Under the pieces are notes generated by a model, which worked only from the letters and a program-made list of their open reading frames with translations, was not told the DNA's origin and searched no databases. Below, in pieces: positions 1 to 31,360 of a stretch of 64,000 nucleotides of DNA (position 1 is its first letter; every line of letters starts with the position of its first letter). Source of the DNA: Hyphomicrobiales bacterium (lineage in GTDB: Bacteria > Pseudomonadota > Alphaproteobacteria > Rhizobiales > Beijerinckiaceae). The stretch lies in the NCBI GenBank assembly GCA_900466745.1, contig UBNE01000003.1, positions 310,001-374,000 of the forward strand, in the 5' to 3' direction. The translations under genes and the position numbers were made by a program.

Positions 1-1018
1 CGGTCTGCGCTTCCCGCCAGGGCACATCCGCGTAGCGATAGGAGCGCACGAAGCGCTGGATGACGTCGAGCGTGTGGTTGCTGGCCTCGTCGCTATCGGT
101 CGAGCCGGGGATGCTGCGGGCGGTGAGGTCTGCTCCCTCGGCCGGCGGCTTCAGGTCGGCGGCCATGCCGTAGCTGTCGAGGAACGGCACGAGCTGCAGC
201 TTGTCCTTGGCCGAGACTCCCCAGCTCATCACCCAGCGGCCATCCTTGGTGTAGCTGACATTGGGCGTGCGATTGGGCTTCTCGACGGCATGGCGCGCCG
301 TCTGGCGGAAGAGCGGTGCCCGCCGCATCACCCAGGACATCAGGTCGAGCTCGGTGTTCTTGGAGACCGCCTCGTGGACGGCCACCGAGACGTCCTGTCC
401 CTCGCCGTTGCGCAGCCGATGCAGCAAGGCTGCCGCGATGCCGATGGCGAGCTGCTCTCCGGCGATGTGATAGGCGTGCCAGAGCTGGGGTGCGATGGGC
501 GGCAGGTCATAGCCGTCCGGGGCGGCGTCGTAGCCGCAGTTCATCATGATGCCGCCAAGGGCCAGATGCACCAGGTCCGAACCCTTGAAATCCTTCCAGG
601 GGCCGGTGTCGCCGAAAGGCGTGATCTGCGCCGTGACGAGCCGCGGGAAACGGCTGTTCAGTTCGGCGAGCGCGATGCCGAAGGTCGAGAGCAGGCGGCC
701 GCCATCGCTGACGAGGAGGACGTCGGCGCCGGCGATCAGCGACAGCACAGCCTCCGCGTTCGGCGCGACCACCGATTTCTTGCCGCGGTTATAGGCCCAG
801 AAATGCAGGGAGGCTTCGGGATCGGGCTTGTCGTCGAGGAAGGGGCCGAAGCGGCGTGTCGGCGAGCCTTCCAGAGGCTCGATCTTGATGACCTCCGCGC
901 CCAGACCCATCAGGAGAAGGCCGCAATATTCCCCCAGCTCGTCGGCGCTCTCGACGACGCGCAGCCCGGCGAACATGCCCGGCTTGAGAGCCTGCCCGTC
1001 CGCTTCCTTCATAGCCAT
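1..1018 (-). CDS. CaiB/BaiF family III CoA-transferase (partial at window edge)
   Basis: The gene reads leftwards and is cut by the window edge, so only about 339 N-terminal residues are visible. It has the family III CoA-transferase fold markers: a GLGAEVIKIEPLEG CoA-binding strand near residue 40 and an NRGKKSVV segment near residue 78. Family members swap CoA between carboxylic acids through an aspartyl-CoA anhydride. Here the region that normally carries that Asp reads LWHAYHIAGEQLAIGI, with no Asp, so it may be a non-catalytic partner subunit. It is the last gene seen of the leftward operon that starts at 5179, 162 bp after the DUF35 gene. ATG 1018 and ATG 1012 are both in frame; the first is chosen. 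Confidence 0.88.
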   Translation of the reverse strand, partial: MAMKEADGQALKPGMFAGLRVVESADELGEYCGLLLMGLGAEVIKIEPLEGSPTRRFGPFLDDKPDPEASLHFWAYNRGKKSVVAPNAEAVLSLIAGADVLLVSDGGRLLSTFGIALAELNSRFPRLVTAQITPFGDTGPWKDFKGSDLVHLALGGIMMNCGYDAAPDGYDLPPIAPQLWHAYHIAGEQLAIGIAAALLHRLRNGEGQDVSVAVHEAVSKNTELDLMSWVMRRAPLFRQTARHAVEKPNRTPNVSYTKDGRWVMSWGVSAKDKLQLVPFLDSYGMAADLKPPAEGADLTARSIPGSTDSDEASNHTLDVIQRFVRSYRYADVPWREAQT

Positions 1019-1180
1019 GGTCTTCTCCCTGCCGGCGGGCTCATCGTCCCGCCCGTCCTTGCCTGCCGCCTTCCGCGAGCGTGGCATGTTCCTTCCGCTC
1101 CGGCGCTGCCGGCTGCTCCCGGGCGCGGCGTCTTCAGGATGGCGGGTGCTCTTCCGGGGGACGTCGCTCTTCCCGCGAGG

Positions 1181-1588
1181 TCATGCCGCCGGCGGGGCGG
1201 AAAGCTTCACCTTCGGAATGCTGCCCTGCTCCGCGTCGGGCTCGTAGCAGATCGTCACCTCGCGCCCGATCCAGCCGCCTTCCGGCTCCGGGCCGACCAG
1301 GTTGCTGATCACCAGGGGGCCTTCGGCGAGCTGCACCGCGACGACGTTGTAGGGAGGCTTGTAGTTGTCGAAATACTGACGGTGAAACACCACCCAGGAG
1401 ATGATCTTCCCCTTGCCCGAGAGGGGCTTCCAGCTCGCCGACATCCCCACGCAATGCGGGCAGCAGGGCCCCGGCGGATAGCGGTATTGCGAACAGTCGT
1501 CGCATTGCTGGAGTGCCCAACGCTGCGCGCGGATGCTCTCCCACATCGGCTCATCGTAGAACTGGATGAACGCTCGCGAATTCGCCAT
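1181..1588 (-). CDS. DUF35 OB-fold zinc-ribbon protein, partner of the adjacent thiolase-fold enzyme
   Basis: A 135-residue protein with a rubredoxin-like zinc ribbon near residues 28-46 (CDDC then CPHC, a C-x2-C...C-x2-C pattern) followed by an OB fold, the DUF35 layout. DUF35 proteins bind thiolase-fold enzymes and complete their acyl-CoA site; known pairs include BbsA-BbsB and ChsH2(DUF35)-Ltp2. The gene starts 8 bp after the thiolase-fold gene stops, as expected for a stoichiometric partner. ATG 1588 is chosen because it gives the standard N-terminus MANSRAFIQFYDEP; the frame is open further upstream but that part overlaps the thiolase-fold gene. The partnership is inferred from order and family. 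Confidence 0.92.
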   Translation of the reverse strand: MANSRAFIQFYDEPMWESIRAQRWALQQCDDCSQYRYPPGPCCPHCVGMSASWKPLSGKGKIISWVVFHRQYFDNYKPPYNVVAVQLAEGPLVISNLVGPEPEGGWIGREVTICYEPDAEQGSIPKVKLSAPPAA

Positions 1589-1596
1589 GGCGCGCC

Positions 1597-2763
1597 TCAC
1601 CGACCGTAGATGATGGAGACGGCCTTGCCGGCGACGTCCGAATTGTAGTGCACGAAGCGGCAATCCTCGACCTGCCGGGCGCCGCATTCGCCCCGCACCT
1701 GCCGCACCGCCTCGACCTGGTGGTTCCAGCCCTGCATGTAGGTTTCGGAGAGATGCCCGCCGGCGGTGTTGACCGGCAGCTTGCCCTTCAGCGAGATGCC
1801 GTCCTCGCGCATGAACCGGCCGGCCTCGCCGGAGCGGCAATAGCCGTAGCCTTCGAGCGCGAAGGGGACATGGCAGGAGAAGCTGTCGTAGATCTGGACG
1901 GCGTCCATGTCCTCCGGACCAAGCCCGGACATATTGAAGACCTGGCTCGCGCAGGCCTCCTGGGCGGGACGGTAGAAGTCCAGCAGGCGCGGTTCGAGGC
2001 TGGTCGCGCCGCGGTTGAGGTCGAAGCGGCCGACGCCATGGATCAGGACCGGCGGCTTCTTGGCGATGCGCTTCGCCCGCTCGGCCGAGGTCACGATCAG
2101 GGCGACGCCGCCATCGTTGATCAGGCAGTAGTCGAAGAGGTGCAGCGGCTCGCAGATATAGCGCGAGTCGAGATAGTCCTGCAGCGTGATCGGCTTGCGC
2201 ATCAGGGCATGGGGCGTGAGGCTCGCCGCCAGGCGCTGGGCCACGGCCACTTCGCCGAGCTCGGCCTCCGTGATGCCGGTCACCTCCATGAAGCGGCGGA
2301 ACATCATCGCGTAGAGCGCGCCCTGCGAGGTGTAGCCCCAGGGGGCATGGTAGACATAGGACAGGAAGAGGTTGCCGCCCATCGCTTCCGGCCCGCCATA
2401 CTGGACGGCGGCCGAGCGCTGGTCGTTGCCGTAGATCAGCGCGACGGTTTCCGCGAGGCCGGCCTTGATGGCGGCGCAGGCCTCGATCACGGCGAGCATC
2501 GCATCGGCCTGCGAACCCCAGCGCGGGTTGATGCCGAGGACCTCGCCGACGCGCTCATAGGCGACGGTGGGGCCGACGATCAGCCCGTCGATGTCGTTGC
2601 GGGTCAGCCCCGCATCGGCCAGCGCCGCGCGGAAGGCGATCGCGGCATAGCCATAGGAGTCATGCGGCTTCTCGCCGGCGCGGACCCTCGCATGGTCCGA
2701 AACATAGTCGCTCTGGCCGACGCCGATCACGGCGCCGACCTTGGCCAGATTGCCGGTCGTCAT
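1597..2763 (-). CDS. Thiolase-fold protein lacking the nucleophilic Cys; probable retro-aldolase subunit
   Basis: A 388-residue protein of the SCP-x/lipid-transfer thiolase group. The usual thiolase nucleophile (QCSSG segment) aligns without gaps to SQADAM, so Cys is replaced by Ala at about residue 86. The C-terminal NTAGGHLS motif is kept (about 332-339). Tyr292 (IYDSFS) and Tyr342 (ETYMQG) lie 50 residues apart, the spacing I recall for the catalytic tyrosines of the steroid side-chain aldolase Ltp2. The likely reaction is therefore retro-aldol cleavage of a beta-hydroxyacyl-CoA together with the DUF35 partner, not thiolysis. Its ATG overlaps the stop of the preceding CaiB gene (ATGA), indicating coupled translation. 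The substrate is unknown. Confidence 0.9.
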   Translation of the reverse strand: MTTGNLAKVGAVIGVGQSDYVSDHARVRAGEKPHDSYGYAAIAFRAALADAGLTRNDIDGLIVGPTVAYERVGEVLGINPRWGSQADAMLAVIEACAAIKAGLAETVALIYGNDQRSAAVQYGGPEAMGGNLFLSYVYHAPWGYTSQGALYAMMFRRFMEVTGITEAELGEVAVAQRLAASLTPHALMRKPITLQDYLDSRYICEPLHLFDYCLINDGGVALIVTSAERAKRIAKKPPVLIHGVGRFDLNRGATSLEPRLLDFYRPAQEACASQVFNMSGLGPEDMDAVQIYDSFSCHVPFALEGYGYCRSGEAGRFMREDGISLKGKLPVNTAGGHLSETYMQGWNHQVEAVRQVRGECGARQVEDCRFVHYNSDVAGKAVSIIYGR

Positions 2764-3977
2764 TCCAGGACACCTTCCGCCCGCAGGGCACTGATCCGTT
2801 CGGGCGCATAGCCGAGCACCTCGGCCAGGACCTCCTCCGTATGCTCGCCGATGAGCGGCGGCCGCTTCAGCGACACGCGCTCGCCGTCGAGGAGGAAAGG
2901 CGGGGAGGTGAAGCGGGCTTCGCCGATCTCGGGATGGTCGACGGTCTGCCAATAGCCGCGATGGCGCAACTGCGGGTCTTCGTCCATCAGGTAGCGGCAG
3001 CTCGCGACCAGGCCGGCCGGAACGCCGCGCGCCTGCAGCGCCTGCATGACGGAGACCGGATCGCGCGCGGCCGTCCAGGCGGCGACGGCGGCTTCGACGC
3101 GCTCAATCTGGGCGAGGCGGCCTTTCGCGGTGGCCAGCGTCGGGTCTGACGCCAGTTCACGGTCTCCGATGACCTCGCAGAGCGCCGCCCACTGGCTGTC
3201 CTTCAGCACCGTGATCGCGCACCACTCATCCTCGCCGGCGCAGCGGAAGATGTTGTGCGGGGCGAAATGGGGCGAGCGATTGCCCAGCCGCTCGCGCTCG
3301 ACGCCGGTGACGGCGTGCTCGACATAGGCGAGGCCCATGCAGTTGATGGTCGACTCGACCTGGGAGAGGTCGATCTTCATGCCCTTGCCCGTCGCGCGCT
3401 TGTAGCGCAGCGCCGCCATCACGGCGAAAGCCGCGTGATAGGGGTTCGCCGCATGGTCGGGAAAATGGGTGCCGGGGCCGATGGGGCCTTCGCCCTCGTA
3501 GCCGGTCTGCCACATCAGCCCGGTCACGGCGCTGATCGTCATGCCGACGCCGAGCAGGTTCGCGAGCGGGCCGTCCTCGCCATACATCGGCATGGCCAGG
3601 TAGATGATGTCGGGCTTGATCGCCTTGACGTCCTCATAGCCGAAGCCGAGCCTCTCCATGGCGCCGGGGCCGAAATTATTGCTGATCACATCCGACTGCC
3701 GGATGATGTCGTAGAGCGTCTCGCGGCTCTGCCCGTTCTTGAGATTGATCGCGACGCTGCGCTTGCCCGTGTTGCGGGAGGCGAAGTAGCCGCTGCGGTT
3801 GATGCCGTAGACGCCGTCCTTGAACGGGCCGCCGACTCGCACCGGGTCGGGCCGGGAGACGCCTTCGATCTTCAGGATCTCGGCACCGAAATCGCTGAAG
3901 AGCTTGGTCGAGAACGGGCCGGCTCCGGCCCAGGTGAAATCCGCGAAGCGGATGCCCTTGAGGAAATCGGGTTGCAT
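2760..3977 (-). CDS. CaiB/BaiF family III CoA-transferase, subunit with catalytic Asp
   Basis: A 405-residue full-length family III CoA-transferase. Visible markers are SDFGAEILKIEG near residue 32, SRNTGKRSVAINLKN near 66 and the active-site segment HFPDHAANPYHAAF, whose Asp fits the aspartate that carries the acyl anhydride in formyl-CoA transferase and CaiB. It lies between a second CaiB-type gene (11 bp upstream) whose aligned segment has no Asp and a thiolase-fold/DUF35 pair downstream. This is the gene set seen in the bbs operon, where BbsEF is a two-subunit CoA-transferase. I infer a heteromeric transferase with the 3989-5179 product. The acid substrate is not known. Confidence 0.92.
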   Translation of the reverse strand: MQPDFLKGIRFADFTWAGAGPFSTKLFSDFGAEILKIEGVSRPDPVRVGGPFKDGVYGINRSGYFASRNTGKRSVAINLKNGQSRETLYDIIRQSDVISNNFGPGAMERLGFGYEDVKAIKPDIIYLAMPMYGEDGPLANLLGVGMTISAVTGLMWQTGYEGEGPIGPGTHFPDHAANPYHAAFAVMAALRYKRATGKGMKIDLSQVESTINCMGLAYVEHAVTGVERERLGNRSPHFAPHNIFRCAGEDEWCAITVLKDSQWAALCEVIGDRELASDPTLATAKGRLAQIERVEAAVAAWTAARDPVSVMQALQARGVPAGLVASCRYLMDEDPQLRHRGYWQTVDHPEIGEARFTSPPFLLDGERVSLKRPPLIGEHTEEVLAEVLGYAPERISALRAEGVLE

Positions 3978-3988
3978 GAGGGCTGCCT

Positions 3989-5179
3989 CTAGCGATGCGC
4001 GATCTTCGAGCTGGCGCGCCCGAGGATGTCTTCGTCGTGCTCGCCGAGAGCGGGTGCGCCGCGGTCGATCCGCCAGACCGGTTCGGACAGCCGATACGGC
4101 GCGCCGGGGAAGGAGACCTCGCGCCCGAGACCCGGCATCGCGACCTTCTGGAAGTAGCGGCGGAAGACGAGCTGCGGGTCGGTGTGCAGGTCGGCGATGC
4201 GGCTGACGGGCGCCATCACGATCTTGCGGCGCAAGGCTTCGGCGCCGAGCTCGGCCTTGGTCTTGTCGGCGATGAAACGTTCGAACAATGCGCGGAACTC
4301 CGCCCGCATCGGTGCCTGCGCCCGCGTCGGCCGGTCGGCCCAGTCGGGTTCGCGCAGCCGCGCCAGCCCGTCGAAGCCCTCCTCCTCCATCCATTTCAGC
4401 AGGCCCGACCAGGAGGCGCTCAGCGCCAGGGGGGCTGCCAGGAAGACATAGCCATCCTTGCAGGTGAAGGCGCTCTCCGTCGCATCGCGGATCCCTTCGC
4501 CGCCGCGCGCCAGGATGCGGTTCTCGAGATCGTAGACTTGGACCGCGTTCTGCAGCGAATGGGCGATGCATTCCTGCGCGGAGATGTCGAGCACATGGCT
4601 GCCCCCGCTGCGCTCGCTGTCCCAGAGCGCGATGGCCGTTGCCGCGGCTGTGTAGAGGGAGGTCACGAAGAGGCTTTGCCGCGCGGGCAGCGCCAAGGGC
4701 GTCCTGCCCGGCTCGCCGGAGAGATAGGCGATGCCGCCGAGCGCCTGGACGACCAGATCGGATCCGGTGAAGCCGCTATAAGGGCCGTCCGTGCCGAAAT
4801 AGGAGACGACCGTCACGACCCTGTGCCCGGGAACGGCGATCAGCTCGGCGACGAGGTCCGGCTCGTCCGGGCCGGGCTCGCAGATCACGATCTGGGCGCT
4901 GGCGACGAGGTCCTCGAAGACGGCGCGGCCGGAAGGGGTCTTCCGGTCGATGACGATGCTCTTCTTGTTGAGGTTCAGGAAAGCGAACTGCACGCCGGTG
5001 GCGGTCGCCTGCTCGGAGCCACCCGTCGCGGCCGGGACCGGGCGATCCGGCCCGCCTTGAGGCGGCTCGATGCGGATGACCTCGGCGCCGAGGTCGGCGA
5101 AGAGGCGCGCGGCATAAAGGCCCAGTTCCCGGGTGAGGTCGATGATGCGGGTTCCGCCGTAGGGGCGTACCTGAGACAT
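3989..5179 (-). CDS. CaiB/BaiF family III CoA-transferase, Asp-less subunit
   Basis: A 396-residue CaiB/BaiF protein with the CoA-binding strand FADLGAEVIRIEPPQGG near residue 28 and an NLNKKSIVIDRK segment near 66. The region that normally holds the catalytic Asp reads ALPARQSLFVTSLYTA and contains none. Together with the Asp-bearing neighbour it probably forms a heteromer. The ATG at 5179 is chosen over ATG 5185 because the AAGGA ribosome site ends 6 bases before it. It is the first gene of a leftward operon running to the window edge. An ATGCAT-type operator lies about 85-100 bp upstream (5264-5280). Confidence 0.92.
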   Translation of the reverse strand: MSQVRPYGGTRIIDLTRELGLYAARLFADLGAEVIRIEPPQGGPDRPVPAATGGSEQATATGVQFAFLNLNKKSIVIDRKTPSGRAVFEDLVASAQIVICEPGPDEPDLVAELIAVPGHRVVTVVSYFGTDGPYSGFTGSDLVVQALGGIAYLSGEPGRTPLALPARQSLFVTSLYTAAATAIALWDSERSGGSHVLDISAQECIAHSLQNAVQVYDLENRILARGGEGIRDATESAFTCKDGYVFLAAPLALSASWSGLLKWMEEEGFDGLARLREPDWADRPTRAQAPMRAEFRALFERFIADKTKAELGAEALRRKIVMAPVSRIADLHTDPQLVFRRYFQKVAMPGLGREVSFPGAPYRLSEPVWRIDRGAPALGEHDEDILGRASSKIAHR

Positions 5180-5263
5180 GTCCATTCCTTGCCACCCGAC
5201 TTGCCGCGAGGGCGCCGAGCCGTGAGGGGTCGGCCCCGGAGTCGCTCTCGCTCTGGGCAAAAG

Positions 5264-5523: not shown

Positions 5524-6159
5524 CTAGCCGGCCTTCGGGAGGTTGGCGGCGCGCCAGCCGTTGCGGATATGCTCCACCATGGCTTCGACGGCGCCTTCAT
5601 GGTCGCCCTGCGTGGCCTTTTGAAGGAAGCTTTCGTGCTCGGCCCGCATCCTCGTCGGCCGCTCACGCTTGATGTCCTGCAGGGTGAAGGGATACTTCGC
5701 CCAGAGCACGCGCACGAAATGCAATGTCTGCGGCCGCTCGGCCAGCTCATAGAGGCGGAAATGGAAGCGGACATTGGCTGTCCGGACCGCTTGCAGGTCT
5801 TCGGCCTCGATGGCTTTCGCGAGGCTGCGCTGGATCTCGTTCAGCTCCTCGAGCTTGTCGGCTGACAGCTTGGAAAGCGCCTTGGCGGTCAGCTCCCGCT
5901 CGAGCATCAGCCGCAGCTCGAAGATTTCCCCGAGCTGCTCGGGCACCAGCTCGGGGACGACGAGGCCCTTGTGCCGCACGCCCTTGATGTAGCCTTCCGC
6001 TTCGAGCGTCAGCAGCGCCTCGCGCACCGGCGTGATCGAGACCCCGAGCTGCTCGGCCAGCTCGGCCTGCTTGAGCTTCGCGCCGCGATCGTAATAGCCG
6101 ACGATGATGCGTTCGCGGAGGATGTCGCTGACCCAGTCCTGCTTGGTCTCGAATGTCAT
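5524..6159 (-). CDS. GntR-family transcriptional regulator, FCD (FadR) type
   Basis: A 211-residue regulator. An N-terminal winged helix-turn-helix (about 10-75) carries the GntR signature AELAEQLGVSITPVREALL. The C-terminal all-helical FCD domain (about 80-205) has ELRLMLERELTAKAL and the metal/ligand-site histidines in FHFRLYE and MVEHIRNGW. FCD-GntR proteins are usually repressors released by a small organic acid or acyl-CoA. It lies downstream of dhaKL in the same direction, 131 bp after dhaL. The ATGCAT operators at 5264, 7956 and elsewhere are the best candidates for its targets, by proximity and number. A weak related element (6255-6272) lies upstream of its own start. Confidence 0.93.
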   Translation of the reverse strand: MTFETKQDWVSDILRERIIVGYYDRGAKLKQAELAEQLGVSITPVREALLTLEAEGYIKGVRHKGLVVPELVPEQLGEIFELRLMLERELTAKALSKLSADKLEELNEIQRSLAKAIEAEDLQAVRTANVRFHFRLYELAERPQTLHFVRVLWAKYPFTLQDIKRERPTRMRAEHESFLQKATQGDHEGAVEAMVEHIRNGWRAANLPKAG

Positions 6160-19358: not shown

Positions 19359-20489
19359 ATGACTTCGATGAACCATCTCAGGAACAAGGTCGCCGTCGTC
19401 GGCGTCGGCAACACGCCCTACGGCAATTTCCCGCACAAGAGCGACTATGCGCTCGGCGCCGACGCCTTCAAGGCCGCGCTGGTCGATAGCGGCCTGGAAA
19501 AGCACGAGATCGACGGGCTGGTGACCTGCCGCGTTCCGTATTACGCCCGGATGGGCGAGGTGCTCGGCCTCGATCCGCGCTGGACGCTCGCCATGCCGGG
19601 CCATGGCCGCATGTCCGGCATGGCGATCATCGAGGCGATGCTCGCCATCGAGAGCGGCGCCGCCGACCATGTCGCGCTGATCTACACCAATATCGGCCGG
19701 TCGCGCCGGATGAACTATGGCGGCGACGATTCCGCCAGCGTCTGGGACCCGTGGGGCTTCACCTCGCCGGGCGCGGCGCATGCGATGATGTTCCGCATGC
19801 ACATGCAGCGCTACGGCACGACGACGCGCCAGCTCGCCGAGGTCTCCGTCGCCTTCCGCCAGCACGCGATCCTCAACCCGGACGCGGTGATGAAGAAGCC
19901 GATGACCATCGACGACCATGAGGAGGCCCGCCCCATCGCCGAGCCGCTGCGGCTCCTGGACTACTGCCTGATCAACGACGGCGCGGTCTGCATGATCCTG
20001 ACCAGCGCCGAGCGGGCCAAGGACCTGCGCAAGCCGCCGGTGCTGATCACCGGGGCCGGCGGGCGCGATGCCTTCCGCCGCTCGGCCGTGGCGAACTTCG
20101 ATCCCGATATGTGGTTCACCGAGGCGCAGGACACGTCGCGCCAGGTCTATGAGATGGCCGGCGTCGGCCCGGATGATGTCGACGCGCTGATGTGCTACGA
20201 CAATTTCAGCCCGACCGTGCTCTTCAGCCTGGAAGGCTTCGGCTACTGCAAGCGCGGCGAGAGCGGCGCCTTCGTCGAGGGCGGTCGCCTCGCGCTCGGC
20301 GGTGCGCTGCCGACCAATACCGATGGCGGCCACCTCTCCAATTCCTACATGCAGGGCTGGGCGCTGAACATCGAGGCGGTGCGCCAGTTGCGTGGCGAAT
20401 GCGGCATCCGCCAGGTGCCCGGTTGCGAGGTCGTGCATTATGTCGCGACCACGCCCTGCACGCGCTCGATCATCTATACGCGGGCCTGA
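19359..20489 (+). CDS. Thiolase-fold protein lacking the nucleophilic Cys; second probable retro-aldolase subunit
   Basis: A 376-residue SCP-x-type thiolase-fold protein related to that at 1597-2763. The nucleophile segment aligns as GHGRMSGMA, so Cys is replaced by Gly at about residue 83. NTDGGHLSNSYMQG (320-333) is kept. Tyr280 (CYDNFS) and Tyr330 (NSYMQG) are again 50 residues apart, the arrangement expected for Ltp2-type aldolases. ATG 19359 is chosen because an earlier in-frame ATG (19260) overlaps the upstream gene. The DUF35 gene follows after 11 bp with a strong ribosome site. The likely reaction is retro-aldol cleavage of a hydroxyacyl-CoA; the substrate is unknown. Confidence 0.9.
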   Translation: MTSMNHLRNKVAVVGVGNTPYGNFPHKSDYALGADAFKAALVDSGLEKHEIDGLVTCRVPYYARMGEVLGLDPRWTLAMPGHGRMSGMAIIEAMLAIESGAADHVALIYTNIGRSRRMNYGGDDSASVWDPWGFTSPGAAHAMMFRMHMQRYGTTTRQLAEVSVAFRQHAILNPDAVMKKPMTIDDHEEARPIAEPLRLLDYCLINDGAVCMILTSAERAKDLRKPPVLITGAGGRDAFRRSAVANFDPDMWFTEAQDTSRQVYEMAGVGPDDVDALMCYDNFSPTVLFSLEGFGYCKRGESGAFVEGGRLALGGALPTNTDGGHLSNSYMQGWALNIEAVRQLRGECGIRQVPGCEVVHYVATTPCTRSIIYTRA

Positions 20490-20500
20490 AGGAGGCATCG

Positions 20501-20905
20501 ATGAGCTACGGTACCCCGGTTCCGGACGGCGATCCGCTGATGGAGCCGTTCTGGCAGAACGCCCGCGAGCACCGGCTCTCGGTGCAATGCTGCCGCGACT
20601 GCGGCGACCGGCACTTTCCGCCGAGCCCGGTCTGCCCGTCCTGCCTTTCGGAGGAACAGGATTGGGAGGTCGTCAGCGGCAAGGCCACGCTGATTTCCTG
20701 GGTGACGTTCCACCGTGCCTATTGGGACGTGCTGCAGTCGCAGTTGCCTTACGATGTCTGCCTCGTCGCGCTGGAGGAAGGGCCGCTGCTGATGAGCAAT
20801 TTCCTCGGCCCAAGGCCGGAGAATGCGCGGGAGGGCCTGCCGCTGCGCGTCGCCTTCGATGCGGTGTCGGACCATCTCACCTTGCCGAAATTCGTGGCGG
20901 CCTGA
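20501..20905 (+). CDS. DUF35 OB-fold zinc-ribbon protein, partner of the second aldolase-like enzyme
   Basis: A 134-residue DUF35 protein. The zinc ribbon is CRDCGDRHFPPSPVCPSC near residues 32-49 and the OB fold follows (LISWVTFHRAYW). It resembles the 1181-1588 product in length and layout, so the two thiolase-fold/DUF35 pairs are probably paralogous modules. A GAAGGAGG ribosome site 5-6 bases upstream of the ATG suggests strong expression. It is likely the obligate partner that shapes the CoA site of the 19359-20489 enzyme. Confidence 0.93.
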   Translation: MSYGTPVPDGDPLMEPFWQNAREHRLSVQCCRDCGDRHFPPSPVCPSCLSEEQDWEVVSGKATLISWVTFHRAYWDVLQSQLPYDVCLVALEEGPLLMSNFLGPRPENAREGLPLRVAFDAVSDHLTLPKFVAA

Positions 20906-30203: not shown

Positions 30204-30258
30204 CTTATGTCGGTTAATGCTCAATTTTGCTTCACTAACAGTACACAATATGATTGGC

Positions 30259-30266
30259 TGTCGACA
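30259..30266. promoter_or_regulatory. TGTCGACA-family operator upstream of the nicX-like gene
   Basis: CTGTCGACATTAATGG holds the perfect TGTCGACA core 45 bp before the ATG at 30311. It is the same element found before leuCD and the TRAP operon. Confidence 0.65.
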
Positions 30267-30310
30267 TTAATGGCGGAGTGGCAATCCTGCACAGGCCAGG
30301 GAGAGCGGAA

Positions 30311-31360
30311 ATGTCGGCAGGTTCACTCATGACGGGAAGCATGGAGCATCTGCGTCGCCCGCTCGTGCGCAACATCAAGGCGGGCGACAAGGTGCTCGTG
30401 CTCTCGGACACGGCGCACGATCCGCGGGTCTGGCAGGCGGTGATGAGCATTCTGCAGGAGATCGGTGCCGATACGACGGTCACGCTCTTCGAGCGGCGGC
30501 CGGCCGACTACTACGATCCGCCGGCGGCCGTCTGCGAGGCGATGATGAAGTCGGATGCCAACATCCTCATCGCATCGACGGGGATGCTGCATTGCGCCGC
30601 GAGCCTGCGCTCGATGGAGGCCGGCATTCCCTCGATCTGCCTGGATGGCGGCATGCAGCTCGAATGGCTGCAGTCCGGCGCCATCGCCGACGACATGCGC
30701 CAGATCGCCGTGCGCAAGCATTATGTCGGCGAGCGCGTCTTCGGGGCGGGCGCGAAGACCTGCCGCGTCACCTCGCGCTACGGCACCGACTTCACCTACA
30801 GCGTCGACGGCCAGATCTGGATTCCGCCGCTGCCGAAGCCGGATTACGATCCCTACAAGATCATCAACTTCCAGAAGGACGAGAACCGCCCTGCCGGCAA
30901 GCTCTACTATTACCTGTACCCGACCGGGGAGTTCAACGTCGCCCCGCACGAAGGCACCGCCGAGGGCAAGCTGGTCATCGACCTGACGATGCATCATCTC
31001 GGCCGGCTTTCGACCCCGATCGAGCTGACCGTCAGGAAGGGCCGGGTGGTCCAGATCGACGGCGGCGCCGATGCCCGGATCCTGCGCGACTTCCTCGAAG
31101 CCTATGGCGACGAGAACGCCTATATGTGCCCGGCCGAAGCCTCGGTCGGCGTTAACGCGAAGGCCGTGATCCGCGGCATTCAGCGCGAGGACAAGAACAT
31201 CATGGGGACGATGCATTTCGGCCTCGGCACCAATGTCGATGTCGGCGGCTCGATCTTCTCCAAGATCCATATGGACGGCGTGATCCTGCACCCGACGCTC
31301 TATGTCGACGGGGTCAAGCGGATCGAGGACGGCCGCTTCCTGGTCGACATCGAAGGCTGA
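30311..31360 (+). CDS. NicX-like 2,5-dihydroxypyridine 5,6-dioxygenase / M29 aminopeptidase-like metalloprotein
   Basis: A 349-residue protein of the M29 aminopeptidase-like superfamily. Its length and the segments EFNVAPHEGTAEG (about 207-219), MHFGLGTN (His302) and KIHMDGV (His320-x-Asp322) fit NicX, the iron(II) dioxygenase that opens 2,5-dihydroxypyridine to N-formylmaleamate; from memory NicX uses an H-x-D ligand pair at nearly the same position. An M29 peptidase or other amide-cleaving enzyme remains possible. ATG 30311 follows a GGGAGAG ribosome site; an in-frame ATG at 30254 overlaps the operator. The TGTCGACA site upstream and the GntR gene downstream suggest local regulation. Confidence 0.75.
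   Translation: MSAGSLMTGSMEHLRRPLVRNIKAGDKVLVLSDTAHDPRVWQAVMSILQEIGADTTVTLFERRPADYYDPPAAVCEAMMKSDANILIASTGMLHCAASLRSMEAGIPSICLDGGMQLEWLQSGAIADDMRQIAVRKHYVGERVFGAGAKTCRVTSRYGTDFTYSVDGQIWIPPLPKPDYDPYKIINFQKDENRPAGKLYYYLYPTGEFNVAPHEGTAEGKLVIDLTMHHLGRLSTPIELTVRKGRVVQIDGGADARILRDFLEAYGDENAYMCPAEASVGVNAKAVIRGIQREDKNIMGTMHFGLGTNVDVGGSIFSKIHMDGVILHPTLYVDGVKRIEDGRFLVDIEG

Follow-up and report, generated by a model that had tools for sequence, protein, structure and literature searches.

A thiolase-fold/DUF35 pair without the thiolase nucleophile cysteine, a probable retro-aldolase encoded among CoA-transferase genes

The window, i.e., the whole stretch of 64,000 nucleotides of contig UBNE01000003.1 (Hyphomicrobiales bacterium) that was analysed, carries near its start a group of minus-strand genes. 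In the order of that strand, these are two CoA-transferase genes (3989-5185 and 2760-3977), P0001, P0002 and the gene for a double-domain CoA-transferase. P0001 (1597..2763, minus strand) encodes a thiolase-fold subunit of 388 aa with a Thiolase_C_1 domain, a probable retro-aldolase. P0002 (1181..1588, minus strand) encodes its DUF35 partner of 135 aa with the Pfam domains OB_ChsH2_C and zf-ChsH2. Both single-domain CoA-transferases belong to family III (PF02515). The gene at 2760..3977 (minus strand) overlaps the start of P0001 by 4 bp, and the one at 3989..5185 adjoins it on the same strand. The N-terminal part of the double-domain family III CoA-transferase occupies 1..1087 (minus strand), and the rest lies beyond the window; its domains are found at contig positions 308505-309689 and 309807-310970 in a single open frame, and it may in fact start closer to 1018. 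A GntR-family regulator is encoded upstream of these genes on the same strand (5524..6159, minus strand).

A second thiolase-fold/DUF35 pair (19359-20905, plus strand) is present in the window, which an earlier sequence-only reading of this DNA had not mentioned. Its thiolase-fold protein (19359..20489, plus strand) is of the G-Y-N-Y type, belongs to the Tyr-pair clade described below and is 51% identical to P0001 over residues 17-386; the gene of its DUF35 partner (20501..20905, plus strand) follows directly. When the 4.49 Mb genome was searched for relatives of P0001 at E 1e-5, this protein was the one closer paralog, and one distant relative was found on another contig.

The AlphaFold2 model of P0001, made with 92 sequences, reached a pLDDT of 93.3 and a pTM of 0.93. 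In a phmmer search against the PDB, P0001 matched 4u4e (E 9e-51), Ltp2 of 6ok1 (2e-48) and Sal of 9myr (2e-39), and Foldseek gave TM values of 0.83, 0.85 and 0.83 for the model, respectively. With VIA-align, 4u4e (Z 49.9) and Ltp2 (Z 49.7) were tied at the top; the superposition on Ltp2 gave 2.0 Å over 365 residues of the predicted model. They were followed by Sal (Z 47.8), two archaeal thiolases that do carry the Cys (6esq, Z 46.7; 7yvy, Z 45.1), PhlC and BbsB (Z 43-44) and the bacterial Zoogloea-type thiolases (about Z 32). 4u4e is a putative thiolase of Sphaerobacter thermophilus for which there is a structure only. It shares the YDSF motif with P0001, but has His at the Tyr342 column and Gly at the nucleophile position and falls outside the Tyr-pair clade. 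Among solved structures of assigned function, those of the aldolases Ltp2 and Sal are nearest. Ltp2-ChsH2(DUF35) of Thermomonospora curvata is a steroid C3 side-chain aldolase, and Sal-Shy(DUF35) is a bile-acid C5 side-chain aldolase. As the archaeal thiolases are nearly as close as Sal, the fold suits an aldolase without singling out aldolases.

To follow single residues, we scanned 84,980 genomes and found 244 loci that encode relatives. The best 80 of these 244 were kept (identity 64-85%), and together with loci from other searches they gave 84 distinct orthologs (identity of at least 58%) and 80 other family members (about 50% or below). Only stop-free ORFs of at least 300 aa were used, and three of 167 sequences were removed as duplicates. 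Identities between 50 and 60% form a gap in the sample, into which one protein met later, L139, falls at 57%. By host class as named, 46 orthologs are from Alphaproteobacteria, 27 from Betaproteobacteria, one from Myxococcia, one from Nitriliruptoria (a MAG) and nine from hosts with no named class. Orthologs are uncommon, as they occurred in 5 of 297 genomes in a survey of the order and in 2 of 385 in a survey of the class, the P0001 genome itself aside. Residue columns were mapped in one alignment of the 164 family members and four PDB fragments, and the numbering agrees with that in the available text of PMC12329534. The residues Q85/Q147/Y292/S294/H337/Y342 of P0001 correspond to G83/P148/Y294/H296/Q339/Y344 in Ltp2 and to G89/Q161/Y302/C304/Q347/Q352 in Sal.

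Tyr292 (codon 1888..1890, minus strand) is aligned with Tyr294 of Ltp2, the Tyr of its YDHF motif in the HMMER alignment, and with Tyr302 of Sal. Tyr342 (codon 1738..1740, minus strand) is aligned with Tyr344 of Ltp2, the Tyr of GGQLGEAY, with Gln352 of Sal and with the His of the thiolase GHP motif. In Ltp2, Tyr294 is described as the base, Tyr344 as the acid and His296 as the oxyanion hole in the part of PMC12329534 that was accessible. The proposal that Tyr292 and Tyr342 form an Ltp2-like pair thus held, as both lie in active-site columns. We also looked in the alignment for a Cys at the nucleophile site and for tyrosines outside the active-site columns, and neither was seen. Both tyrosines are present in all 84 sampled orthologs. 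Since Tyr342 is part of one of the two scan patterns, the orthologs found independently of it were counted separately, and here Tyr342 is present in 50 of 50. Among the 80 other members, Tyr292 occurs in 78 and Tyr342 in 30.

Gln85 (codon 2509..2511, minus strand) occupies the column of the thiolase nucleophile, which is Cys in the Pyrococcus thiolase 7yvy and corresponds to Gly89 in Sal. The sequence-only reading had placed a Cys-less nucleophile site at Ala86; Cys is indeed absent, but the position was one off. The signature of SCP2-type thiolases and acetyl-CoA acetyltransferases (nucleophile Cys plus GHP His) is replaced by Gln85 and Tyr342. In the 84 orthologs, column 85 holds Gln in 78, Glu in two and Val, Ser, Asn or Ala in one each, and column 86 is Ala in 71. 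No ortholog has Cys at either column, and the GHP His is absent from all 84. In one ortholog (L083), a Cys is found at column 88. The other members have Gly at column 85 in 79 of 80 cases. The stretch before column 85 has five residues in every ortholog, compared with at least ten in 79 of the 80 other members and seven in the remaining one. In the model of P0001, strand 82-85 ends and helix 88-101 begins at this shortened nucleophile loop.

The flanking pairs of CoA-transferases, which resemble the bbsEF genes, would suit an enzyme like PhlABC or BbsAB, a C-acyltransferase or Claisen-type catalyst whose nucleophile is unusual. PhlABC and BbsAB appear among the structural matches, and the accessible part of PMC12329534 describes them as combining a thiolase fold with a DUF35-type partner. 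However, none of the 84 orthologs has the nucleophile Cys or the GHP His, and PhlC and BbsB align less well than Ltp2 (Z 43-44 against 49.7), which makes this reaction quite improbable for P0001. Identity with the benzoylsuccinyl-CoA thiolase BbsAB itself was rejected, as the scores were 102.8 bits against an NCBIfam cut-off of 750 for BbsB and 19.7 bits against 250 for BbsA.

In KSQ loading domains of polyketide synthases, a Gln at the nucleophile position holds the thioester for decarboxylation, and the catalytic His pair is retained. P0001 might be a decarboxylase of a malonyl-CoA type substrate in which Gln85 works in the same way. The Gln in 78 of 84 orthologs would fit, and a relative, TbSLP, decarboxylates malonyl-CoA very slowly (PMC12329534, available text). 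But column 85 is not strict (Glu, Asn, Ser, Val and Ala occur), Tyr342 occupies the place of the KSQ His pair at least in part, and the same text reports no malonyl-CoA decarboxylation by Sal. We therefore consider a decarboxylase unlikely.

Gln147 (codon 2323..2325, minus strand) is aligned with Gln161 of Sal, where Ltp2 has Pro148. It is found in 84 of 84 orthologs and in none of the 80 other family members. Ser294 (codon 1882..1884, minus strand) is the third residue of the YDSF motif, corresponds to His296 of Ltp2 and Cys304 of Sal, and is likewise present in all 84 orthologs. For Sal, Tyr302 and Cys304 are given as catalytic residues and Gln161 plus a backbone amide as the proposed oxyanion hole (PMC12329534, in the part seen). 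P0001 shares the fold, the first Tyr (302) and this Gln with Sal, but has Ser294 and Tyr342 instead of Cys304 and Gln352, and Sal lies elsewhere on the tree. A Sal-type mechanism was rejected because P0001 has neither Cys304 nor Gln352. The residue mapping hence indicates that P0001 combines the acid-base pair of Ltp2 with the oxyanion-hole Gln of Sal, without the Ltp2 His or the Sal Cys. Judged by its sequence, the active site is a new mix of the Ltp2 Tyr pair, the Sal Gln, Ser for His and Gln at the nucleophile position. Compared with Ltp2, with which P0001 shares the fold, the DUF35 partner, the Tyr pair and the missing nucleophile Cys, the Ser in place of His296, the Gln in place of the nucleophile Gly and a loop shorter by about five residues suggest a different pocket. 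P0001 was classed neither as a Sal nor as a thiolase.

The loss of the canonical thiolase residues could also mean that P0001 is a non-catalytic scaffold or an inactive thiolase relative kept for complex formation. Yet the residues that replace them (Tyr292, Ser294, Tyr342 and Gln147) are invariant in 84 of 84 orthologs, which argues against a dead enzyme, as it would not need them; we regard a scaffold as very improbable. Three proteins from other searches, L136 (75% identity), L137 (68%) and L139 (57%), have all four residues as well, with Glu at column 85 in L136 and Met at column 337 in L139. The fourth protein from these searches, L138 (50%), belongs to the G-Y-N-Y type. The conservation within the clade counts as one evolutionary event, not 84.

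In a tree of 92 rows, a clade of 46 rows received an SH-aLRT support of 91. Besides the focal clade (support 100), it includes Ltp2 with two relatives, IpfD, a single G-Y-N-F row and the G-Y-N-Y group, to which the second pair of the window belongs. Three further rows of the clade form a G-Y-A-H subgroup that has His at column 342. The Tyr pair requires two changes on this tree when the Tyr/Phe row (L132) is counted with the Tyr-pair rows, which is consistent with one gain and one loss. The tree used 11 of the 84 orthologs and omitted four long-branch rows, among them the Tyr-pair row L121. A first tree of 103 rows with 19 of the 84 orthologs and without IpfD had a corresponding clade with a support of 90. 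The support for the Tyr-pair clade is moderate, and the exact place of IpfD is unsure because of its long branch.

IpfD is assigned a substrate that, like the one predicted for P0001, is not a steroid. The protein encoded on plasmid pRW412a (L133:5749-6933) is annotated as 'hypothetical protein', and we named it IpfD from the order of the genes and the accession it shares. Its gene lies between dioxygenase and OB-fold/AMP-ligase genes with IS6100 flanking, and the same protein accession is found on pIBU218. The available part of PMC9195938 states that these strains share a highly conserved ipf cluster and that a retro-aldolase splits the CoA-linked dihydrodiol of ibuprofen; it attributes propionyl-CoA to the product of ipfDE, which it elsewhere terms a thiolase. 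IpfD-IpfE shares with P0001 the pairing with DUF35, the Tyr pair, the His at column 337 and the clade. The two proteins are 37.6% identical, and IpfD differs by Ala at the His296 column and Gly at the nucleophile position. For Ltp2, the role as aldolase was demonstrated by mutants (PMC12329534, part of the text). As far as these sources go, the Tyr-pair clade thus holds one aldolase shown by mutants and one member with an attributed non-steroid retro-aldol step. In the part of the literature searched, we found no described non-steroid member besides IpfD.

The DUF35 protein P0002 has a zinc ribbon (C29-x2-C32-x10-C43-x2-C46) and an OB fold, and phmmer against the PDB matched it best to the DUF35 chain of ChsH2 in 6ok1 (E 7e-20). 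The gene spacing of 8 bp in the sequence-only reading was confirmed, and the partner gene lies directly downstream in all 83 orthologs with room for it; one more is interrupted by a contig end. Of the 83 ortholog partners, 65 have the C4 zinc motif. DUF35 also follows directly in 28 of 28 G-Y-N-Y and 21 of 21 G-Y-S-H members. For the 21 G-Y-A-H members, it is downstream in three, upstream in 16 and not found in two, and for the two Ltp2-like G-Y-H-Y members it is upstream in one and not found in the other. The single Cys-bearing relative (L003) is without a DUF35 gene.

We counted neighbouring genes at the 54 of 84 orthologs that have more than 5 kb on each side. With our own profile, a family III CoA-transferase gene was found within 9.9 kb in 50 of 54 loci and within 5 kb in 42. 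The remaining four (L039, L052, L053 and L089) have a PcaI-type CoA-transferase gene, so that a CoA-transferase of either kind is present within 9.9 kb in 54 of 54. As a control, 388 PF02515 matches were counted in the 125.7 Mb of 20 of the host genomes, or about 3.1 per Mb; the expected chance of a family III gene per 21 kb is about 6%, and about 17% in the densest genome (39 in 4.3 Mb). The following counts come from phmmer searches with one to three queries and are lower bounds: an AMP ligase near one of 54 loci, MaoC near one (two at a laxer threshold), an acyl-CoA dehydrogenase near six (seven) and lactonase-type hydrolases near 28. Hydratases and dehydrogenases of the steroid type are thus seldom found in the neighbourhood. 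A ring dioxygenase was found in none of the 54 loci with one phmmer query. IpfD has a ring dioxygenase gene and an AMP ligase gene as neighbours, which occur in 0 and 1 of the 54 loci, respectively, and an ibuprofen-like substrate was rejected on the ring dioxygenase missing in this one-query search.

A second, non-orthologous thiolase-fold gene accompanies 29 of the 54 orthologs; 16 of these are G-Y-S-H, 12 are G-Y-N-Y, and one locus has two others. The 16 carry a second pair with His at column 342. A second putative Tyr-pair aldolase is encoded close by in this window, as well as at 12 of the 54 other loci, so that two cleavages could occur in succession. Enoyl-CoA hydratase/isomerase genes lie near 28 of the 54, and a substrate hydrated on site is therefore also possible. 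Other neighbours vary by sub-group and include TRAP, TTT or ABC transporters, lactonase-type hydrolases and genes of the IlvD and PrpD/PrpF types. They do not point to one substrate. We infer that CoA is transferred to an acid, which then undergoes cleavage, with the hydroxyl present from the start or added by the neighbouring hydratase.

The context of P0001 differs from that of Ltp2, as it is one of CoA-transferases and no steroid marker was found. HsaD, the single steroid marker tested, reached at best 58.5 bits in the P0001 genome against a cut-off of 400 bits, and no steroid gene was noticed among the annotated neighbours. This agrees with the statement in the sequence-only reading that no steroid genes surround the pair, and a steroid pathway was rejected on these grounds. 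As P0001 lacks His296 and nothing found here ties it to steroids, it was not classed as an Ltp2.

A Tyr-pair aldolase could also work in the synthetic direction and couple a ketone or keto acid with an acyl-CoA, as aldol reactions are reversible and the direction is not readable from sequence. The context, however, looks catabolic, with transporters, regulators, lactonase-type hydrolases (28 of 54) and CoA-transferases, and we think synthesis very improbable. Within the thiolase superfamily, P0001-P0002 is probably an aldolase that depends on its DUF35 subunit and cleaves, or is able to form, the Cα-Cβ bond of a β-hydroxyacyl-CoA. The sequence-only reading had likewise proposed a retro-aldolase, which the missing Cys, the Tyr columns, the DUF35 partner, the Ltp2 and Sal structures and the clade support. 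It had further expected a new substrate class. A non-steroid retro-aldolase for a small β-hydroxyacyl-CoA is our best reading, but non-steroid substrates have a precedent among such enzymes, given what the accessible text on IpfD reports. With the thiolase Cys lost and a two-tyrosine aldolase site in place, P0001 most likely acts on a small hydroxy acid linked to CoA, which it would split, and not on a steroid.

In such a retro-aldolase, Tyr292 would remove the proton from the β-hydroxyl, and the bond would break to give a ketone or aldehyde and an acyl-CoA enolate, which Tyr342 would protonate. Gln147, perhaps with Gln85, may hold the enolate oxygen and so replace His296 of Ltp2, and the DUF35 subunit of the presumed complex would wall the substrate pocket. 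The acid is probably small, polar and hydroxylated and would be loaded with CoA by the flanking CoA-transferases. If so, the acyl-CoA product can hand its CoA to the next acid. Citrate lyase offers an analogy for such a ligase-free cleavage cycle. We put forward, tentatively, that the operon is a ligase-free system like citrate lyase but built from unrelated parts. CoA-transferases would load the substrate, an aldolase with a hybrid site would cleave it, and the acyl-CoA product would pay for the next round. This could be a widespread, unnamed route of Alpha- and Betaproteobacteria for a small hydroxylated di- or tricarboxylic acid or the lactone of such an acid.

Public plasmid records list relatives of P0001 under the names thiolase, acetyl-CoA acetyltransferase or lipid-transfer protein, and such annotation misleads pathway predictions. 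P0001 allows a direct test of which residue can stand in for the oxyanion-hole His of Ltp2. If the aldolase reading is true, Tyr at two alignment columns would be a simple rule for recognizing carbon-carbon lyases in the thiolase superfamily, well beyond steroids, and the clade with Gln85, Gln147 and Ser294 would give aldol chemistry with CoA esters a new scaffold.

The C-x2-C-x10-C-x2-C motif is missing from 18 of the 83 DUF35 partners encoded beside orthologs of the focal thiolase-fold protein, namely those at loci L040, L048, L053, L054, L055, L057, L066, L072, L076, and L077 of other genomes and eight more. Because at least one zinc cysteine is substituted in each of the ten named partners while the flanking sequence is retained, zinc may be dispensable in these partners.

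A second thiolase-fold/DUF35 pair lies at window positions 19359-20905. It has the Tyr pair and a YDNF motif, and its neighbors include one gene of SMP-30 lactonase-like type and another for an alpha/beta hydrolase. Relatives of this pair with G-Y-N-Y at columns 85, 292, 294, and 342 of the focal protein are again found next to the first pair at 12 of the 54 loci. G-Y-S-H pairs (thio9 genes, e.g., L072:6815-7981) adjoin it in 16 of the 54 and are separate from both Ltp2 and Sal in the tree. These pairs are frequently accompanied by genes for GST, PcaI-type CoA-transferase, or dienelactone hydrolase.

The ibuprofen plasmid pIBU218 carries a second lipid-transfer protein/OB-fold pair (L135:1539-5157), neighbored by enoyl-CoA hydratase and CaiB-type CoA-transferase genes. 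On pDK3 of Rhodococcus sp. DK17 (L130:3388-13436), two thiolase-fold/DUF35 pairs lie within about 10 kb, and the interval between them contains an F420-dependent oxidoreductase gene; the Tyr342 column holds Tyr in one and His in the other.

The protein encoded at window positions 30254-31360 scored 26.8 bits against Peptidase_M29, marginally below the 27-bit cut-off, and an NCBIfam search at 1e-10 returned no match for it. By eye, it resembles a gene of cluster c46, which in some loci is close to the focal pair and to TRAP transporter genes.

Eight of the genome's 13 family III CoA-transferase domains are inside or extend into the 64-kb window, which therefore looks like an acid-catabolism island.
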